Positions 17,711-44,267 of a stretch of 64,000 bases of DNA are shown piece after piece; the first letter of the stretch is position 1; every line of letters begins with the position of its first letter. The stretch is from Neopestalotiopsis rosae. Its lineage: Eukaryota > Ascomycota > Sordariomycetes > Amphisphaeriales > Sporocadaceae. Under the pieces are notes generated by a model. That model was not told the origin of the DNA and did no database searches. It saw only the letters and a program-made list of their open reading frames with translations. The translations under genes and the position numbers were made by a program. The DNA lies in NCBI GenBank assembly GCA_023078685.1, contig JALGAS010000009.1, positions 1,550,001 to 1,614,000 of the forward strand, given 5' to 3'.

Positions 17711-18770
17711 TCATCCAGGAACCTGTGGCATCGCCATCCCGTGGGCACCTGCCTTCTTCTTCTTCTTCTTCTTTTTTGAAGGGGGGGGGGGGGGGGGGGG
17801 GGCGGGTTTCCAAGGCAGCCCTGCGCCGGGCGAGAAGAACGGGATGAAGGAACAGTCCTGAACGACACCGCCGGTAACGATGAAGCGTAGATCGGGATCC
17901 GCCAGCTTCGCAGCACCAGCGATGGCGTCGGACGCGATGAAGATCTTGGTGGCGTCGCCCTCAATATTGCAAGCGATGACGTAGAAGTAGTTCCCCATGG
18001 TGTCCACGGCCATGTACACGCCAGGCGTCGAGCTGGACTCGTCGTAGTTCACAGGCATCAGGTCGAGTAGGTCGGCACCATTAGGGATCGCGTCGATGCT
18101 GCTAGGGCGGATGCGCGACACGCCAAAGGCAGCCATGGTGTCGGGGTAGTAGTAGAAGATGCAGGTCGTCGCCTCGGACGACTCGGACTCTTTGTAAGAG
18201 CCGTAGGCGGCGCTGGGAATAGACAGGGCGTCCGCCGCAGCAGTCTTTGGGTCGCTGGAACCGTCGCCCTGGGCCAGGCCCAGATTGCCGTCGTCGTCGT
18301 TGATCAAGATGTAGGAGCCGCTCTGGTCGACGACGGCTATGTACACAAGGTCGTACTGGGTGGCGTCGCCGTTCGAGTCGTCGCTAGAGTCGTTACCGCC
18401 GGTCGAGTTGTCATCGCCAGTAGAGTCGCCACCGGATCCAAGCAGCTTGCAGCCAGAGACAAGATCAGGCGAAGTGAAGGTCGCAAGCGACACGGTATTG
18501 AGCTGGAAGAAGTCAAGGCTGGTGTCATTAGCTAGGGCTATATTGTAGGCGATGCCATTGGCACAGTCTGCCTCCGTGGAATACTCGGCCTTGAGGCTGA
18601 CGGACGGCTCATTGATGACAGAGATCAGTCGGCAGCCCTTGGTTCCAAGCAGGATAAGATCGATACCGACATCGACGTGAATGGGAAAGGCAAGCTTTGA
18701 GCTGACAGTGATCAACCCTTTGGCATCGAATCGGGTGGTGAAGACAGGCGTGAAGGGTGTCGCCCGTCGA
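17711..18770 (-). pseudogene. Fragment of an unknown, probably secreted protein
   Basis: An open minus-strand frame encodes a protein with conserved-looking segments: LLGTKGCRLISVI, a Cys-containing stretch DCANGIAYNIALANDTSLDF, SPDLVSGCKLLGSG, a Ser/Gly/Asp linker, and TPGVYMAVDTMGNYFYVIAC. Composition suggests an extracellular fungal protein, but the family is not identified. The coding part ends in an artificial-looking tail (proline then lysine runs) created by the poly-G/TTC tract at 17754-17802. At its 5' side it is fused out of frame to a PNP_UDP fragment at about 18770, so both ends are damaged. Confidence 0.5.
17754..17802. repeat. TTC repeat plus poly-G tract (22 nt)
   Basis: A TTC trinucleotide run (about 17754-17772) and six T are followed by GAA and twenty-two consecutive G (17781-17802). 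This is the second very long G tract within 2 kb; both read as proline runs on the minus strand. Confidence 0.95.
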
Positions 18771-18894
18771 GCATCGCGATGGCTGCGGTCTGCTCCTTGG
18801 GCAGGGCGCAGACCCATCCGACTGTATAGGCATCGCGAGTGCGCGAGGGTGTCGCCATGGTGGGTGTGTTGGTAAGAGTGCTCTCGGCGGTCAT
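18770..18894 (-). pseudogene. N-terminal fragment of a PNP_UDP-type NLR or effector
   Basis: From ATG 18894 the frame reads a short Ser/Thr-rich leader and then AYTVGWVCALPKEQTAAIAM-LD. This is the characteristic first strand and helix of nucleoside-phosphorylase domains at the N-terminus of many fungal NOD-like receptors. Homology stops after about 45 residues at a junction near 18770 with an unrelated gene fragment. The intact PNP_UDP gene at 43218 shares only the general pattern (YTVAWIAPLEIETQAALHML), so this is a separate paralogue's relic. Confidence 0.7.
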
Positions 18895-25482: not shown

Positions 25483-28400
25483 ATGCGCGCGCTCTCGGCG
25501 TTCTTGCTCTGTGCGCCGCTGGTTTTGGCCACGAAGCGAGGGCAGGAAGATGCAGGCCAGTGTTCTGTGCGAACAGTCACTTACCTTGCTCCTTATACCT
25601 CTCCAGCAAACTCATACGAAACCGGCGGCTACACTGCCCCGGGTCATGGAGCAGACGATCCTCATGCGACGGATGGCCCCTACGCAGGTGGTTTTTATCT
25701 AGACGGTAGTTCTGGCCCTGATGACTCTTACCTAGAGGATGGCTCCAACCCTGTTGGTGGTTTCTATTCAACTGGCATCGTGGACCCTAACCAGGGCAGT
25801 GGCTACCAAATTGATACCAGTGAGATATACGAGACAGCAACATCTTATTGGTCCTATCCCACCGAGATTGAAACTGTCTTGCCGATTACCACTCAGGTCT
25901 ACTCGACTTACAGCTCTTTCGAGCCCACCGTTATTACCACCACTGTTGTGTCCACGACAGAGGTGCCTACGACCATCACCATTGACAATACGGCCACCGT
26001 CACTTCTGTTCTTACTTCTGTTGTCACCTCGGTTTCCACTTTCTCCACCAGCTTCCCTGTGACTTTTAGCGTAACGCTCACCACGACTGATACTACCTCA
26101 ACTGTGATTACATCGCTTGTTACCACTTCGTCTATTATCACATCCACTGCTACTTCTGAAGTAACCATCAGTGGGCCTATAGTTACAGAGCCTGGACTAA
26201 CAGTCACGGGACCTGGGCTAACCATTACGGGACCTACCATTACTGGACCTACCATCACAGGCCCTGGTATTACCGTCACGTTGCCTAGTATCACTGGCCC
26301 TACGGTTACCGTCATCCCGACGGGCTTGCCATTCCTTGAGATCGTCAGTGTTCGTGTCAACCCTGCAGCCACACCAGCCGCCGTTGCCAAGAGATGGCTT
26401 CCAAGATTTAAACGCCAAGCGACCGAACAACTACCACCCCAAGGCTATTTCGGAACTCCCGACGATGTCGCTCCGCAAACCTGCGACAGGGCAGTTCAGG
26501 TCGAGTTTGATGAGGGCAGAGTGATTGCGAATGGACGCTTGATTGCGACACAGCCAGACCTTCCATTCCTCGATCTTACTGTTCCGACGGAGGGCTCAAT
26601 CCAGACCAACTTTTCCATCGAGAATGACTTGATCGTTTGGGCAAACGATGCCTTCTTTGGCGGCGTTGCTCGCTTCTGTCAAGTCCTAGATGGTAGAATC
26701 TTTGGTCTTTTTGAGGACACAACTGGGCCTGCGGATTGTACCCTTATAGACTTGGTCGTGTATTCATGTAAGTTACTACTACTGCCAATCGCCGATAAAC
26801 AGGGTCTAACCTCTAGAGGCTAGCTGGGCAATGCCAGAATGGTACCCTCGTTGGGGGCGGCCCAACATCTCCGGGTGTTTCTACCTCTCTTACTCTGCCA
26901 GTGACCTTGCCCACGTCAATCACAGGTGCTGAGATCAATCCTCCATCTTCCACTGAGAGCTCGGCTACGGAGTCAGAAACTTCCGAGACCAAAAGTCCAA
27001 CAAGTCCCGTATCTAGTACCGAGACTTCAAGTGCTACCAGTCCCGTATCCACTCCGGAGACCTCCAGTCTCACGAGTTCTATAACTACTCCTGGAAACAC
27101 CAGTACATCGCCAACCACTCGGTCTATTTTTGATTCTACCTCGCTGATTACTAGCCCTGAGTCCAGCTCTTTACCTGCCGCGCCAGAATCGGAAACCGCA
27201 AACCCAATCTTCTCCCCTACTAGTGTCATAGGTACAAGCTCAGGGTCGTTTTCCTCGACAAGTGGAATTTCATCTCTTCCCAGCGTCCCCCTCAGCAGTG
27301 TTATCAGTGAAGCTATAAGTAGCTCCATCACGAATCTGCCCATCTCATCTGCTGTGCCTTCTTTGATTCTCAGTATTCAGTCATTAGAAATTGCTCCCAC
27401 CCCGACACAGATCCCCGCGCTGGCACAGCGAAGCGGCTTATTTATACAAAAGCGTCAAGTCTCAGCGTCGCTAAATGGCTTCGTCGGAATAGGTGAGACG
27501 TCAGAAGGCTGCTCGAATGCTGCAGTTATAACACAGGCAAATGGACAACTACTCATACAAGGAAACTTGTTGTCTGTGGATCCGGGAGTCCCGTTCATTA
27601 ATCTGTCAAATTGGGCTCAAGGTTCCATTACAACGGAGTTTCTCATATCAGATGGCGCACTGGTATGGAGAAACAGCCAATTCTTCAATGGAACCGCAAG
27701 ATTCTGCCAAATCGCGAGCGGGCTCGTGTATATCTTGTTTACAGAGAAAAACGAACCAGAAAATTGTTTGCCCATCATTCTGGAAGCGTATCCGGGTAAG
27801 TGATATTCCATAAGCATGATGTGGCGGCCGATACTGAAACAAGAGATATAGCCGTTCAATGTGTAAATAATGTGCTCGCTGGAATATCAAGCACTGCCGC
27901 AAGCTCTGATGGGCAGGTGACCACGACGATCAGTCCCACCAGAGTGGCAAGCACAAGTGCTGCACCGACTACGACAGGCAGACCAACGGATCAAACTTCA
28001 CAGATGACAGAATCAAGTGATAACAGCGTGACGCGCAGTCTAACGATCCCAAGCACGACCGAACCCCATGGCCAGTCAACCAGTGTGCCAACTGATCTAT
28101 CAACCAATACTTCAAGCAGTATATTATCTGAGCTCACCAATCTACCAACCAGTCTGCCAACTGATCTGCCAACCAGCGTACTAAGCAGTATTCTATCTGA
28201 GCTCACCAATCTACCAACCAATTTACCAACCAGTCTGCCAACCAGTCTGCCAACTGATCTGCCCACTAGCGTACTGAGCAGTATTCTATCTGAGCTCACC
28301 AATCTTCCAACCAATCTGCCAACTGATCTGCCAACCAGCGTACTAAGCAGTATACTATCTGAGCTCACCAATCTGCCAACCAATTTACCAACCAGTCTGC

Positions 28401-31400
28401 CAACCAGTCTGCCAACTGATCTGCCCACTAGCGTACTGAGCAGTATTCTATCTGAGCTCACCAATCTACCAACCAGTCTGCCAACAGACCTTCCTACCAG
28501 CGTACTGAGCAGTATACTATCTGAGCTCACCAATCTACCAACCAATCTACCAACCAGTCTGCCAACTGATCTGCCAACAGACCTTCCTACCAGCGTACTG
28601 AGCAGTATCTTATCTGAGCTCACCAATCTGCCAACCAATCTGGCAACTGATCTGCCAACCAGCGTACTAAGCAGTATCTTATCTGAGCTCACCAATCTGC
28701 CAACCAATCTGCCAACTGATCTGCCCACTAGCGTACTGAGCAGTATTCTATCTGAGCTCACCAATCTGCCAACCAATTTACCAACCAATCTGCCAACCAG
28801 CCTGCCAACTGATCTGCCAACTAGCGTACTGAGCAGTATTCTATCTGAGCTCACCAATCTACCAACCAGTCTGCCAACAGACCTTCCTACCAGCGTACTG
28901 AGCAGTATACTATCTGAGCTCACCAATCTACCAACCAGTCTGCCAACCAGTCTGCCAACTGATCTGCCCACTAGCGTACTGAGCAGTATTCTATCTGAGC
29001 TCACCAATCTACCAACCAGTCTGCCAACAGACCTTCCTACCAGCGTACTGAGCAGTATACTATCTGAGCTCACCAATCTACCAACCAATTTACCAACCAA
29101 TCTACCAACCAGTCTGCCAACTGATCTGCCAACAGACCTTCCTACCAGCGTACTGAGCAGTATCTTATCTGAGCTCACCAGTCTGCCAACTGATCTGCCA
29201 ACCAGCGTACTAAGCAGTATCTTATCTGAGCTTACCAATCTACCAACCAGTCTGCCAACAGACCTTCCTACCAGCGTACTGAGCAGTATACTATCTGAGC
29301 TCACCAATCTGCCAACCAATTTACCAACCAGTCTGCCAACCAGTCTGCCAACTGATCTGCCCACTAGCGTACTGAGCAGTATTCTATCTGAGCTCACCAA
29401 TCTGCCAACCAATTTACCAACCAGTCTGCCAACCAGTCTGCCAACTGATCTGCCAACCAGCGTACTAAGCAGTATCTTATCTGAGCTCACCAATCTGCCA
29501 ACCAATCTGCCAACAGACCTTCCTACCAGCGTACTGAGCAGTATACTATCTGAGCTCACCAATCTACCAACCAGTCTGCCAACCAGTCTGCCAACTGATC
29601 TGCCCACTAGCGTACTGAGCAGTATTCTATCTGAGCTCACCAATCTTCCAACCAATCTGGCAACTGATCTGCCAACCAGCGTACTGAGCAGTATTCTATC
29701 TGAGCTCACCAATCTACCAACCAGTCTGCCAACAGACCTTCCTACCAGCGTACTGAGCAGTATACTATCTGAGCTCACCAATCTACCAACCAATCTACCA
29801 ACCAGTCTGCCAACTGATCTGCCAACAGACCTTCCTACCAGCGTACTGAGCAGTATCTTATCTGAGCTCACCAGTCTGCCAACTGATCTGCCAACCAGCG
29901 TACTAAGCAGTATCTTATCTGAGCTTACCAATCTACCAACCAGTCTGCCAACAGACCTTCCTACCAGCGTACTGAGCAGTATACTATCTGAGCTCACCAA
30001 TCTGCCAACCAATTTACCAACCAGTCTGCCAACCAGTCTGCCAACTGATCTGCCCACTAGCGTACTGAGCAGTATTCTATCTGAGCTCACCAATCCGCCA
30101 ACCAATCTGCCAACTGATCTGCCAACTAGCGTACTGAGCAGTATACTATCTGAGCTCACCAATCTGCCAACCAATCTACCAACCAGCCTGCCAACCAGCC
30201 TGCCAACTGATCTGCCCACTAGCGTACTGAGCAGTATTCTATCTGAGCTCACCAATCTGCCAACCAATTTACCAACCAATCTACCAACCAGTCTGCCAAC
30301 TGATCTGCCAACAGACCTTCCTACCAGCGTACTGAGCAGTATCTTATCTGAGCTCACCAGTCTGCCAACTGATCTGCCAACCAGCGTACTAAGCAGTATC
30401 TTATCTGAGCTTACCAATCTACCAACCAGTCTGCCAACAGACCTTCCTACCAGCGTACTGAGCAGTATACTATCTGAGCTCACCAATCTGCCAACCAATC
30501 TACCAACCAGCCTGCCAACCAGCCTGCCAACCAGCCTGCCAACCAGCCTGCCAACGAGCCTGCCAACAAGCCTGCCAACAAGCCTGCCAACAAGCCTGCC
30601 AACGAGCCTGTCAAGTATTCTACCCAGTGGCCTTATCCCGACCTCTACGACTTCATCTATGGGGCCGTGTGGCACAAATCCTCCGGCGTACCTTATTCAA
30701 GACCGGGCACTAGTGCGCGCTGATTTGGCCACAACTCTATTGATTCTCCCTGCATCCGGCTTCACAACCATCAATCCTAATGTCGCTGGCGGTGCCGCTA
30801 CGATTGACGCTATGGGTTACAATGTCGCGGACGGATTTCTGTACGCTGCTTTAGGGCCCTTTCCGTCACGACTCATTCGTATCTCTACTACAAATGGCTC
30901 AACTACGGACCTCGGCTCGCTCAATCTGACTGCTACTGCTATTGCCGGCGTAATAGACGAAAATTCGCAGTATTGGCTTATCAATGCTGATAACAGGCTC
31001 TGGACCCAAGTAGACCTACGACCCGCTTCTGCCACATTTGGACGAGTTGTAGCTTCGGGAACGTCAGTAGCCCCAGCTCATACTGTTTCAGACTGGGCGT
31101 GGGTTCCGGGTACCGTTGGTGGCAATAGTTTGTACGGTCTCTCCACTCAGAATGGATTATTAGGGACGTCTACAACATATTTGATGGCATGGAACAGGTC
31201 AACCAAGGCCTGGACAACAGCATCCTCATTTCTGAACGTGGTGGCCGGCTCCAATTGGCAATCTGTTTTTGCTGGCCAGAACCTCCTTTACGGTAGCGAT
31301 TCTGTCTCTGGTGGTATTTTCAGTTTCCCACTTCCTGGGGCTGGCATTGGCCTACTGGCTGGAACTGTAGGGACCGGTGTTGCGTCAACCTTGGCTGATG

Positions 31401-41127: not shown

Positions 41128-41397
41128 TCAACGTAAGTCCTCCTCGTTTAGCAGTTTTCCAGCCAGGAGTTTCCCCATATGCGTTTTCTCGATCCCTTCA
41201 TTGTTGCGTCGAATTTTAGCCATCAGTTCATGCAAGAACTTGGCAGGACTGCACGTGTAGCGACCATTGTTTATGCACGAACCTGCCGCACAGCCAGGCG
41301 GTACGAAGCCATCCGCCTCAATCAAGGCATCACCGTTGACAGTTTCCCAGGTAAGGCAAAGGGTGTCACAGATTTGAGTGTATTCCTCGAGAGACAC
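41128..41397 (-). CDS. Coding-like fragment, Cys-containing (partial)
   Basis: The frame reads YTQICDTLCLTWETVNGDAL, GFVPPGCAAGSCINNGRYTC, SPAKFLHELMAKIRRNNEG and ends GKLLAGKLLNEEDLR. Composition is strongly protein-like and includes five Cys in two clusters. There is no ATG: an in-frame TAA lies just before the GTG at 41397, so this would be a 3' exon or a gene fragment. Family unknown. R4 repeat sequence begins just upstream (41440) and may have removed the 5' part. Confidence 0.35.
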   Translation of the reverse strand: MSLEEYTQICDTLCLTWETVNGDALIEADGFVPPGCAAGSCINNGRYTCSPAKFLHELMAKIRRNNEGIEKTHMGKLLAGKLLNEEDLR

Positions 41398-41439
41398 TTA
41401 TATCATGCTCTTTTAATACTGTACGCTATCAGCGTGTAT

Positions 41440-41830
41440 GATCGATAGTTATGACGTGGTAAAGACAGTTTCTTCTTCAGTCAATGCTGAAAGTGTCATA
41501 GAGACGCGAGATCCGTCCACCATTATCGCTTGTGTTGTTTTCCCGCTGCGATGGTCATGTCCCAACATATGGTACACTAAGAAGAGAAATGTCAGGGGAG
41601 CTCCACGACATGTATGCATTTCCGAAAGAGAATCCTTGTTGTCCGAAGGACAGAAGACTATCCAAGACACAAAAGAATATTCTGACACAGAAGTGTATCT
41701 CAGCTTCTTTAGAAACCATTTAATACAGCCTCAGCTCCCAGAGCCTGAATAAATGTGCCGCAGTACCTCGAAGGCCTGGGAGAGCGCAATACTGATAAGC
41801 AGGGGACCAGCATGGTTACAAAGCCGGCCA
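41440..41830. repeat. R4 dispersed repeat, copy 2
   Basis: Shares the head with 39500 and 45240 (GCTGAAAGTGTCATAGAGAC, then GATCCGTCCACCATTATCGC), the block GTCAGGGGAGCTCCACGACA, a few degenerate 18-bp units (41650-41700), and the tail GAGCCTGAATAAATGTGCCG with GATAAGCAGGGGACCAGCAT. The tail is also present at 53070-53150. Confidence 0.65.
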
Positions 41831-42408
41831 TAGCCTATGGAGTCGACAGTGTGTATCTTGACCATGTTGCAGAGCAACAGCAAAGGATTCAACCTAGCCC
41901 ATGTGGATCTTATAACCGTATTCCGCTACGCTAGTACAACGCTTTCCACTGGGTCCTTAGTTATGATCCGCCTCAGACAAACACAGTATAAGTTAGTATG
42001 GCACTGTGCATGATCTATTTTTGTGGAGATCATGTCCGACTCCCGTCCAAGGGCAGGAAGTGCTTGTTCGGATGCAGAATATGACACAGTAGATGATTGA
42101 CCTGATGACGCAGCGTTTGTATTTCACACCTCAAATGATACCGATACAAGATAACACTCAACACTCAAATAATGACAAGCAACTTTCCACTGACAGTCAG
42201 GACGAAGAACTTATGAATGAAGCGGGCGACTTACGATTGTCATCAAAAAGAAAAAAAAGAAAAAAAGCCGACATCACTGGGCGTATTGTGAAACTAAATG
42301 TCATCCACCAGCATTGACACATATAACTACGTGACGGAGTCAGCTCCGACTTTAGCTTTTAAGCAGAGATTGGGTTGATGACGTTCGCACGCGAAATGAG
42401 AACGCTGG

Positions 42409-42900
42409 TCATCGATTTGATTTGCCGTTTGCCCTACATTCCAAAGCATTCCAAAGCATTGTCTGCTCTGCTCTATACAGTACTCTACAGATAGAATCGG
42501 CGTGCACCCAGAATACATATGTGCTTGGCGACTGCTTTCTGATTCGATGCGCGTATTGGATGGCCACCTGGGATTTGCTTGATATGTCAAGTTAGAGAGG
42601 AAGATGGATAGAGGCAGCGTCATCGGAAACTCACCCGACCCCACCCAGGCCGACAAGGGCAGCACGGCTGCCTGGTGGGATAAAGGTATCATGCAGCCAC
42701 GTCGCAATATTCGTTCGCTCGATAAAGTCGGGGTCGGGTAGAAAAGGCACGGTCGAGAAGGGTTCGCGCCGTTGCGGTGGGTGGCGGCTCGGTTCGTGGA
42801 TGGGTTCGTGGATAGTGACGTTTAGGCTGCCGCCGGAAACGTGGGTCCCCGCAAAGACGGTCCGCCCAGCGACCCGCTCATACGTCGACGGTGGGTTCAT
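42409..42900 (-). pseudogene. Amputated NB-ARC NOD-like receptor with N-terminal amyloid-type motif
   Basis: Exon 1 (42900-42635) and exon 2 (42577-42409) flank a 57-bp GTGAGT..AAG intron and join in phase to 144 codons. Residues 12-30 (GRTVFAGTHVSGGSLNVTI) match the C-terminal motif of the neighbouring PNP protein. A linker follows, then FLPDPDFIERTNIATWL and the NB-ARC start: P-loop GLGGVGKSQ at 84-92, split by the intron, and YVFWVHAD. After about residue 116 the sequence no longer resembles NB-ARC and TGA follows at 42409-42411. The rest of the ATPase and the sensor repeats are missing. NLRs of this plan switch on an effector by templating an amyloid fold. It could still make a short motif-bearing peptide, but not a regulated receptor. 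Confidence 0.8.
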
Positions 42901-43217
42901 CGGGTCGGCATGTGGAGAGTCGGTAATAACAGAAGGGGTGGTATCCAGGAAAGATTCTTCAGAATTCGGTCATGAATGCCAATTTTATGACTTGCGAGCT
43001 GGCATGGAGAGTGAGTTTGTAATGGCTGTCAGTAGATCCCCCAATCCAGGGTGCGGCTGAGTCTGGCAGAAACCCCAGGCAGTCATCATGTCCCCGCACC
43101 AGCTAGAGCCTCGTCCAAGTCCCTGCTTACCTTCGTCTTCAAACATCTTCCCTTCGCTCAACCTCCCAATGATTTCATTCATCACAATCAGTATTAAATT
43201 GTCGTTCGATTTTTACC
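42901..43217. promoter_or_regulatory. Divergent promoter between NLR and PNP effector genes
   Basis: A 317-bp interval between two head-to-head start codons. It contains a CCAAT at about 43041 and a CT-rich tract (about 43110-43175) before ATG 43218. Head-to-head clustering of receptor and effector is usual for fungal amyloid NLR pairs and suggests joint regulation; the latter is inference. Confidence 0.5.
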
Positions 43218-44267
43218 ATGGCAGAACTCAATCCGGCCCATTACACCGTAGCGTGGATTGCCCCACTGGAAATCGAGACGCAGGCAGCTTTGCACATGCT
43301 GGACAAGAGGCACCGTGGCCGTTTCCCTGTTGCTCGCGGCGACGACTATGTTTTCTACGCAGGCATTATGGGTGGACACAATGTAGTTATTGCAACCCTA
43401 CCTGCTGGTCAGGAATATGGCACGGGATCGGCGGCCGCTCTAGCTAGTCAGGTCAAGAAGTTCTTTCCTAATATGTGGTTCGGCCTGCTCGTAGGTGTTG
43501 CCGCTGGTTTGCCAAAGCTCTCTGATGCCAGGCCACGAGATATCCGTCTAGGTGACGTTTTGGTTGCTCTTCCAGAAGGCGACAATGCTGGACTTATTGC
43601 ATATGACCTTGGCAAGGAGACTGGGAAGGATGGATTCCAGCTCTTACGTTTTGGACACGTCCTGGCCACTACTGAGACAATCGTCAGGTCAGCAATCGGA
43701 AGCATCAAGAACAACGCGCCGAATGATGCGGCAATTTTTCTTCCGTTGTACAACAAGATAAAGAACCAGGAGCATGCGACTGGGACATTCGCTGATCCGG
43801 GCCAGGACAACGATGTCCTGTACGAGACGAATGAGGCTGGTATCGAGCAAACGGTGACTCGAGAACGGAGACCAGATACAAGACGTACCCGTGTGTGGTA
43901 TGGACCAATAGGCTCTGGGGAGAAGCTCATGAAAGATGCACAGAAGAGAAATGAACTGAGAGATAGGTACAATGTCATTGGGCTCGAGATGGAAGCGGCC
44001 GGGACAATGAACCGTGTTCCTGTCGGAGTTGTCCGAGGCGTTTGTGATTACGGGGATGTACACAAGAATAAGGAATGGCAGCCATATGCAGCTGCTATGG
44101 CAGCCGCGTATGCCAAGGCTATTCTGCTAGAGATTCCGCCTAGGAAGATCCAGACGTCGGACAGTTTACAACCGCACGGAAATAACTTCACGGGGCCGAT
44201 CTCGGGACACAATGTATTTTCGGGAATGACCACATCAGGTGGAACGGTTAACTTGAATATCTCTTAG
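43218..44267 (+). CDS. PNP_UDP (nucleoside phosphorylase-fold) effector with C-terminal amyloid-type motif
   Basis: A single-exon gene of 349 aa. Residues about 9-320 form a nucleoside phosphorylase / nucleosidase fold as used in fungal NLR-associated proteins: YTVAWIAPLEIETQAALHML at the start, WFGLLVGVAAGLP (87-99), a GLEMEAAG motif near 255-262 (base/ribose-contacting glutamates), and RGVCDYGDVHKNKEWQPYAA. A short linker leads to residues 330-348, GHNVFSGMTTSGGTVNLNI, at the extreme C-terminus. This aligns without gaps to residues 12-30 of the divergent NB-ARC gene. The frame is intact with no stops. Expected role: soluble effector activated by NLR-templated aggregation, possibly cleaving purine nucleosides or nucleotides. 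The catalytic output is inference. Confidence 0.88.
   Translation: MAELNPAHYTVAWIAPLEIETQAALHMLDKRHRGRFPVARGDDYVFYAGIMGGHNVVIATLPAGQEYGTGSAAALASQVKKFFPNMWFGLLVGVAAGLPKLSDARPRDIRLGDVLVALPEGDNAGLIAYDLGKETGKDGFQLLRFGHVLATTETIVRSAIGSIKNNAPNDAAIFLPLYNKIKNQEHATGTFADPGQDNDVLYETNEAGIEQTVTRERRPDTRRTRVWYGPIGSGEKLMKDAQKRNELRDRYNVIGLEMEAAGTMNRVPVGVVRGVCDYGDVHKNKEWQPYAAAMAAAYAKAILLEIPPRKIQTSDSLQPHGNNFTGPISGHNVFSGMTTSGGTVNLNIS

Follow-up and report, generated by a model that had tools for sequence, protein, structure and literature searches.

We describe a head-to-head pair of genes in Neopestalotiopsis rosae that probably represents a split switch, in which the N-terminal motif of an NB-ARC receptor would template the matching C-terminal motif of a separate nucleosidase-like enzyme as amyloid, with death or arrest of the cell through the enzyme as the likely outcome. 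The receptor gene found in this genome is cut short, and the enzyme is probably orphaned. The pair lies in the window, by which we mean the whole stretch of 64,000 nucleotides that was analyzed (C17:1550001-1614000, in a genome of 53.8 Mb on 17 contigs), and its features are listed in Table 1.

Table 1. Features of the enzyme and receptor genes, in window coordinates
Feature	Position	Strand	Basis
PNP_UDP-type (nucleosidase-like) effector gene	43218..44267	+	349 aa, one open frame (ORF list)
Effector C-terminal motif, residues 322-349 (NNFTGPISGHNVFSGMTTSGGTVNLNIS)	44181..44264	+	41.7 bits (PNP-tail profile) and 22.9 bits (NLR profile)
Divergent intergenic region, start codon to start codon	42901..43217	.	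317 bp, from ORF coordinates
NLR exon 1: motif, linker and first half of P-loop (GLGGVG)	42635..42900	-	79% identity to P0121 over the whole of exon 1
Receptor N-terminal motif, residues 5-30 (STYERVAGRTVFAGTHVSGGSLNVTI)	42811..42888	-	11.2 bits (PNP-tail profile)
P-loop intron, 57 nt	42578..42634	-	GTGAGT at the donor and AG at the acceptor; reading frame resumes as GVGKSQ; join spanned by P0121
NLR exon 2 and stop; NLR-derived to 42496-42484, then non-homologous tail	42409..42577	-	
42 bp of foreign sequence at the receptor break, matching the margin of a C1 minisatellite (10-bp unit)	42437..42478	.	98% to C1:1438577-1438618
Dispersed repeat past the break	41400..42141	.	89% to C17:3163483-3164264

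Matching motifs at the ends of the two genes

The preliminary description of this DNA had proposed a PNP-like reading frame, a facing frame that starts at 42900 on the minus strand, and a truncated receptor adjoining an intact effector. All of these were confirmed, as was the head-to-head layout, in which 317 bp separate the two start codons. The two 19-residue segments that had been aligned between the proteins also lie at the residues given for them, and are identical at nine of 19 positions without gaps. The best ungapped pair of 19-mers is displaced from that alignment by two residues (residues 328-346 of the PNP and 10-28 of the NLR; BLOSUM62 score, 49). None of 2000 shuffles of the whole proteins reached this score (best, 46), nor did any of 20000 in which just the two 35-residue ends were shuffled (best, 42). 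In addition, the NLR of a relative, P0121, finds the window PNP tail by itself in a tblastn search (residues 8-30 to 44193-44261; E, 0.02). The motif extends beyond these 19 residues, to about 26-29 residues. It is single-copy in the window PNP and in the PNP tails inspected.

We then considered homologues of both proteins. The PNP set comprised 120 homologues listed among the 844 found, and 23 stand-alone PNPs of these 120 carry a motif resembling VFNGPISGRNVVAGxSxSGGTxNxNFS at their end, behind a variable linker; 21 of the tails came from a pattern, and two (P0020 and P0046) were added by eye. The NLR set consisted of the proteins matching exon 1 of the receptor, 47 of them long and eight short. 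A profile was built from the 23 PNP tails with the window excluded, and the best score among 1100 shuffled decoys (5.2 bits) was taken as the threshold. With this profile, 21 of the 47 NLR N-termini scored above the decoys (best NLR, 28.6 bits), and one more tied with them; the two window proteins scored as given in Table 1. Four of the eight short NLRs were also above 5.2 bits (15.8, 12.3, 9.8 and 5.4). In the reverse direction, a profile of 21 NLR N-termini, which were picked by eye for the motif and again excluded the window, placed 27 of 122 PNP tails above all of 2440 decoys (best decoy, 4.9 bits), a total made up of 25 database proteins (out of 120), the window PNP and its sister. The remaining 95 PNP tails and 26 long NLR N-termini show no motif by these profiles.

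Because the profiles recognize NLR N-termini and PNP tails in both directions, we conclude from these alignments that the motif is a conserved family, located at the start of NB-ARC-TPR receptors and at the end of stand-alone PNP_UDP proteins. It had been suggested that the pair would be coincidental if the segments were not conserved in homologues of either protein; the motif is kept in homologues of both, at the effector C-terminus and the receptor N-terminus. The mean pairwise identity was 0.58 in the motif columns, 0.21 in the 15-residue linker and 0.78 in the core, in rows that were chosen for the motif and hence favor it. Judging from organism names, the NLRs come from Sordariomycetes, Dothideomycetes and, with Tricladium, Leotiomycetes. 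The relatives that are named (Microdochium, Apiospora, Xylariaceae and Pestalotiopsis) and the intron in the receptor gene are in keeping with a filamentous ascomycete. In a tree of the PNP core, 54 of 122 inner branches were open, no single origin of the motif-bearing PNPs was shown, and the label test was uninformative. One PNP relative, P0045, has a tail that resembles PUASM (RGQGIQQTGGNF) in place of the window motif; therefore, related PNPs bear different end motifs.

A second pair on the same contig

About 73 kb away (C17:1664701-1669621), a PNP gene and an NLR gene again lie head to head and bear related motifs at their ends. Its putative start codons (1666720 and 1667126) are 405 bp apart, its PNP ends in SVFNGPINGRNVVAGSSMTGGTYTFG, and its NLR starts with MAAPNSFGSIEGRNVLAANQFHGTTINIGD and continues into NB-ARC and TPR matches. 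With the PNP-tail profile, these motifs scored 45.3 bits (PNP) and 16.9 bits (NLR). A composite motif peptide searched against the genome found the PNP tails of the window and of the second pair and no others, in a search that misses weaker copies, the window NLR itself among them. The local scores between the four motifs were 63 for PNP1-PNP2, 53 for PNP1-NLR1, 48 for PNP2-NLR2, 43 for PNP1-NLR2, 40 for NLR1-PNP2 and 37 for NLR1-NLR2. In other words, each PNP motif scores highest among the NLRs with its own NLR, by small margins, and the likeness of the two PNP motifs exceeds that within either pair, so that cross-talk between the pairs is possible. We do not claim co-evolution within pairs, as the four motifs have no uniform preference for their own partner. 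Across C17:1592000-1745000, many PNP and NB-ARC matches are grouped near one another, as in an NLR cluster. Elsewhere in the window, we observed a weak PNP-like fragment (18751-18834, minus strand; 28 residues, 54% to a paralogue) and a strong local GC skew of -0.389, with an AT skew of 0.115, at 28001-30000.

The effector enzyme

The best Pfam family for the effector was PNP_UDP_1, at 20.6 bits and thus below its cut-off of 25.1. The effector has EME and CDYGD signatures, and across the family EME is present in 116 of 121 proteins and CDY in 118 of 121. We take EME and the catalytic Asp to be signatures of MTA/SAH-type nucleosidases. When the family profile was compared with solved structures, MTA/SAH nucleosidases ranked first (E, 1.7e-4); a PDB search with the single effector sequence gave no match. 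The nearest NCBIfam model is likewise an MTA/SAH nucleosidase (E, 3.7e-9), although its 36.4 bits fall short of the curated-family cut-off of 169 bits. PADLOC returned PDC-M60C (E, 1.4e-10) and, as a weak match, ‘Effector, PN-superfamily’ (E, 3e-10). A structural model of the effector, of low confidence (mean pLDDT, 61.8), has two strands in the motif (332-337 and 343-348) with a turn. A fold search with this model gave an MTA/SAH nucleosidase as top match at an rmsd of 10.2 Å, which we do not count as evidence. PNP_UDP relatives are described as immune ATP nucleosidases in two reviews (PMC10197012, PMC12881547). The window effector may act in this way, on a nucleoside or on ATP.

Intron and truncation of the receptor

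The receptor had been thought to stop shortly past its P-loop. This was a misreading, since that TGA sits inside a canonical 57-nt intron (42634-42578; GG before the junction, GTGAGT after it). Splicing out the intron yields GLGGVGKSQVAIQYAHRIRKQSPSTYVFWVHAD, and exon 2, after GLGGVG and the intron, continues the NB-ARC domain as KSQVAIQYAHRIRKQSPSTYVFWVHAD. The same join is crossed by P0121, an annotated NLR of 769 aa from Pestalotiopsis fici that shares 80% identity with the window receptor across residues 1-115 and has NB-ARC and TPR domains, both above the Pfam cut-offs. The short reading frames of four relatives (P0168, P0169, P0170 and P0175) stop at the same point as the unspliced window frame, as is expected where the intron is left unremoved. 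P0121 also scores 354.9 bits (cut-off, 300) with the NCBIfam model FxSxx_TPR, which is named for a TPR protein of the bacterial FxSxx-COOH system.

Even so, the NB-ARC domain of the receptor is incomplete, with the break not at the P-loop but about 27 residues past the intron join. Homology to P0121-P0123 stops between 42496 and 42484, the stop codon is at 42411-42409, and the resulting stub of 144 residues keeps just the start of NB-ARC. When an NB-ARC-TPR NLR is defined by the presence of both domains, the stub falls outside the definition and its orthologue P0121 falls within it. The 42 bp from 42478 onwards match the margin of a minisatellite on contig C1 (10-bp unit, ATGCTTTGGA repeats; C1:1438577), and 47 repeat matches, self included, were listed for 41200-42420, most of them at approximately 41471-41700. 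The remainder of the receptor was not found elsewhere in the window, with the NB-ARC reading frames of the genome and P0121-P0123 as queries. An intact close orthologue was likewise not found elsewhere in the genome with P0121 (81 matches; 58 of 79 candidates scored). Outside the window, the best of the 81 matches had 64% identity over the TPR part and 44% over the NB-ARC part. The sole other close copy found is a relic (C1:6014473-6014946) in which the motif region is readable and the first 154 residues contain 14 stops. The DNA around this relic is about 24% GC, with RIP-like dinucleotide ratios, whereas the window stub shows no such composition.

Fused and neighboring relatives

Of the four PNP paralogues in the genome that are nearest to the window PNP, three (72-74% identity; on C12, C2 and C10) directly precede NB-ARC matches on the same strand, and the fourth (65%) lies within a frame of 580 residues. 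In the database protein P0010, the PNP, the motif and an NB-ARC linker occur in a single frame, and this protein nests among the motif-bearing stand-alone PNPs in the tree. Two other PNP-NB-ARC fusions, P0049 and P0104, have no motif. In Microdochium trichocladiopsis, a PNP (P0002) and an NLR (P0171) both bear the motif and are each assigned to a contig with a length of 3671400; hence they are probably located on one contig. P0171 is annotated at 145 residues and ends inside NB-ARC.

Proposed mechanism and alternative explanations

We propose that, in an intact pair, an activated NB-ARC receptor would turn its N-terminal motif into an amyloid template, which would convert the matching C-terminal motif of the neighboring nucleosidase-like enzyme. 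The assembled enzyme would then likely destroy a nucleotide pool, acting on a nucleoside or on ATP, with cell death or arrest as the consequence. In this genome, where the receptor end is gone, the enzyme is probably orphaned, or it may be served by the neighboring pair, and the 144-residue stub would be inactive rather than a free template.

Several lines of evidence point to this split-switch reading. The motif exceeds chance in the shuffles and is cross-recognized in 21 of 47 NLRs and 27 of 122 PNP tails, and P0121 finds the window PNP tail (E, 0.02). The genes are divergent neighbors both here and in the second pair on C17, fusions of PNP with NB-ARC occur at three of the four nearest paralogues and in P0010, and the two Microdochium proteins with the motif probably share a contig. 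Nearly all of the 121 family proteins retain the catalytic signatures (116 and 118, respectively), and MTA/SAH nucleosidases are the nearest structures. Furthermore, a PNP_UDP/NLR motif with the same layout has been published as making fibers and prion-like foci (PMC9815663), and the two motif strands with a turn in the low-confidence model agree weakly. Counted against the reading are the broken receptor, with which the pair cannot operate here in the proposed way, the 95 PNP tails (of 122) and 26 NLR N-termini (of 47) in which the profiles show no motif, the poorly resolved tree without a single origin, and the missing uniform preference of motifs for their own partner.

We also considered that the motif may be a docking peptide, or a hinge left over from a split PNP-NB-ARC fusion in which both halves kept the joining segment, with no amyloid involved. 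The single frame of P0010, in which the motif separates the PNP from the NB-ARC linker, and the nesting of this protein with motif-bearing stand-alone PNPs would fit such an origin, as would the NB-ARC matches that follow the three nearest PNP paralogues checked. However, the fusions P0049 and P0104 do not contain the motif, and its conserved glycines, asparagines and alternating hydrophobics, in a short segment at the protein end behind a variable linker, appear more like known amyloid signaling motifs than like a hinge. We regard this explanation as unlikely.

Two further alternatives concern the fate of the locus itself. If the locus were dead, with a broken receptor and a drifting enzyme, then the truncation at 42484-42496, the foreign DNA and dispersed repeat past it, and the RIP-like relic of the same receptor elsewhere in the genome would all be expected; however, the PNP keeps its frame, signatures and motif intact and is 81-83% identical to its nearest relatives over the full length, which makes a dead locus quite improbable. 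If, instead, the stub is expressed, its free motif might seed the intact enzyme without regulation or act on it as a decoy. The stub has intact exons, splice sites and motif, its composition is not RIP-like, and the Microdochium NLR P0171 is annotated at a similarly short length. Nevertheless, harm would be expected from permanent seeding of an enzyme that kills the cell, and P0171 may be merely a short gene model, so that we give this possibility a low probability. Finally, chance resemblance of the two segments, with just nine identities in 19 positions of glycine- and serine-rich sequence, can be dismissed given the results of 0/2000 and 0/20000 in the shuffles and profiles that work from either side to the other.

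In the literature examined, experiments on fungal amyloid signaling have dealt much with pore-forming effectors, and enzyme effectors have been studied less. The truncated receptor copy, under the split-switch reading, is a natural deletion and poses the question of how an effector of this type behaves once its receptor is lost.

Comparison with known amyloid signaling motifs

The locus has the general layout of fungal amyloid motifs, that is, the same motif at an NLR N-terminus and an effector C-terminus in neighboring genes, and so does the second pair. Amyloid pairing of an NLR with a PNP_UDP effector is of an already published kind: such pairs are reported with PUASM, with the rarer PF01048_015 (four pairs) and with the HRAM3-like NLR12 (PMC9815663). 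PUASM resembles the window motif in its place at PNP_UDP C-termini and neighboring NLR N-termini in Pezizomycotina. However, its pattern FxGxGxQxxGxGxF fits none of the 27 motif instances, whereas the published PUASM peptide itself fits this rule and scores just 0.5 bits with the PNP-tail profile. The receptors also differ, as PUASM NLRs are of NACHT or NACHT-WD40 type (PMC9815663) and those with the window motif are NB-ARC-TPR proteins.

The adjacent NLR/effector genes of HET-S/NWD2 and HRAM pairs carry motifs at the same ends (PMC4518210). Their effectors form pores through a HeLo domain and carry a 21-residue motif in two repeats, whereas the window effector is of enzyme type, has one copy of its motif and lacks the HRAM spacing; single motifs are, however, reported for the NLR12 type (PMC9815663). 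The HRAM rule (hydrophobics at 5, 8, 10, 16 and 18, and G at 19; PMC4518210) fits 0/27 instances, likewise when T is allowed, and the PP core NxGxQxGxN also fits 0/27. Searched against Pfam, including sigma, the 27 motif peptides matched no model at E up to 10, with HMMER filters that drop weak short matches. The preliminary description had left it undecided whether the motif belongs to a named class or is new. The rules of HRAM, PP and PUASM separate it from these three classes, and the likeness to PUASM 2 and NLR12 was judged by description only.

By that description, PF01048_015 and NLR12 are both single motifs at PNP_UDP C-termini (PMC9815663). NLR12 is much like the window motif, with 26 residues usually at positions 5-9 of the NLR, but it is called HRAM3-like, whereas the window motif misses the HRAM positions. 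PUASM 1-2 are mentioned in PMC12261475, where ‘PUASM 2’ is apparently PF01048_015, and this motif, compared by description only, may be the same as that of the window. The window motif is not named in the accessible text of the open-access literature examined, including PMC5485727, PMC12258605, PMC4986451 and PMC8086366. It is conceivable, but rather doubtful, that xxxFxGPIxGRNVxAGxxxSGGTxNxNFS defines an undescribed fungal amyloid-signaling family by which NB-ARC-TPR receptors in several classes of ascomycetes are wired to nucleosidases encoded as separate proteins, and that the window is at the same time a natural receptor deletion in which the template end alone survives, with the enzyme left orphaned or facing a free seed.

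The nearest comparison within the genome is with one-piece PNP_UDP-NB-ARC NLRs, three of which have a PNP part 72-74% identical to that of the window. In these, effector and receptor belong to one polypeptide, so that a templating step is unneeded, whereas the window has two genes. A further motif joining NB-ARC-TPR receptors to a nucleosidase-like enzyme, with fused relatives, would offer a direct test of whether templating replaces covalent fusion.
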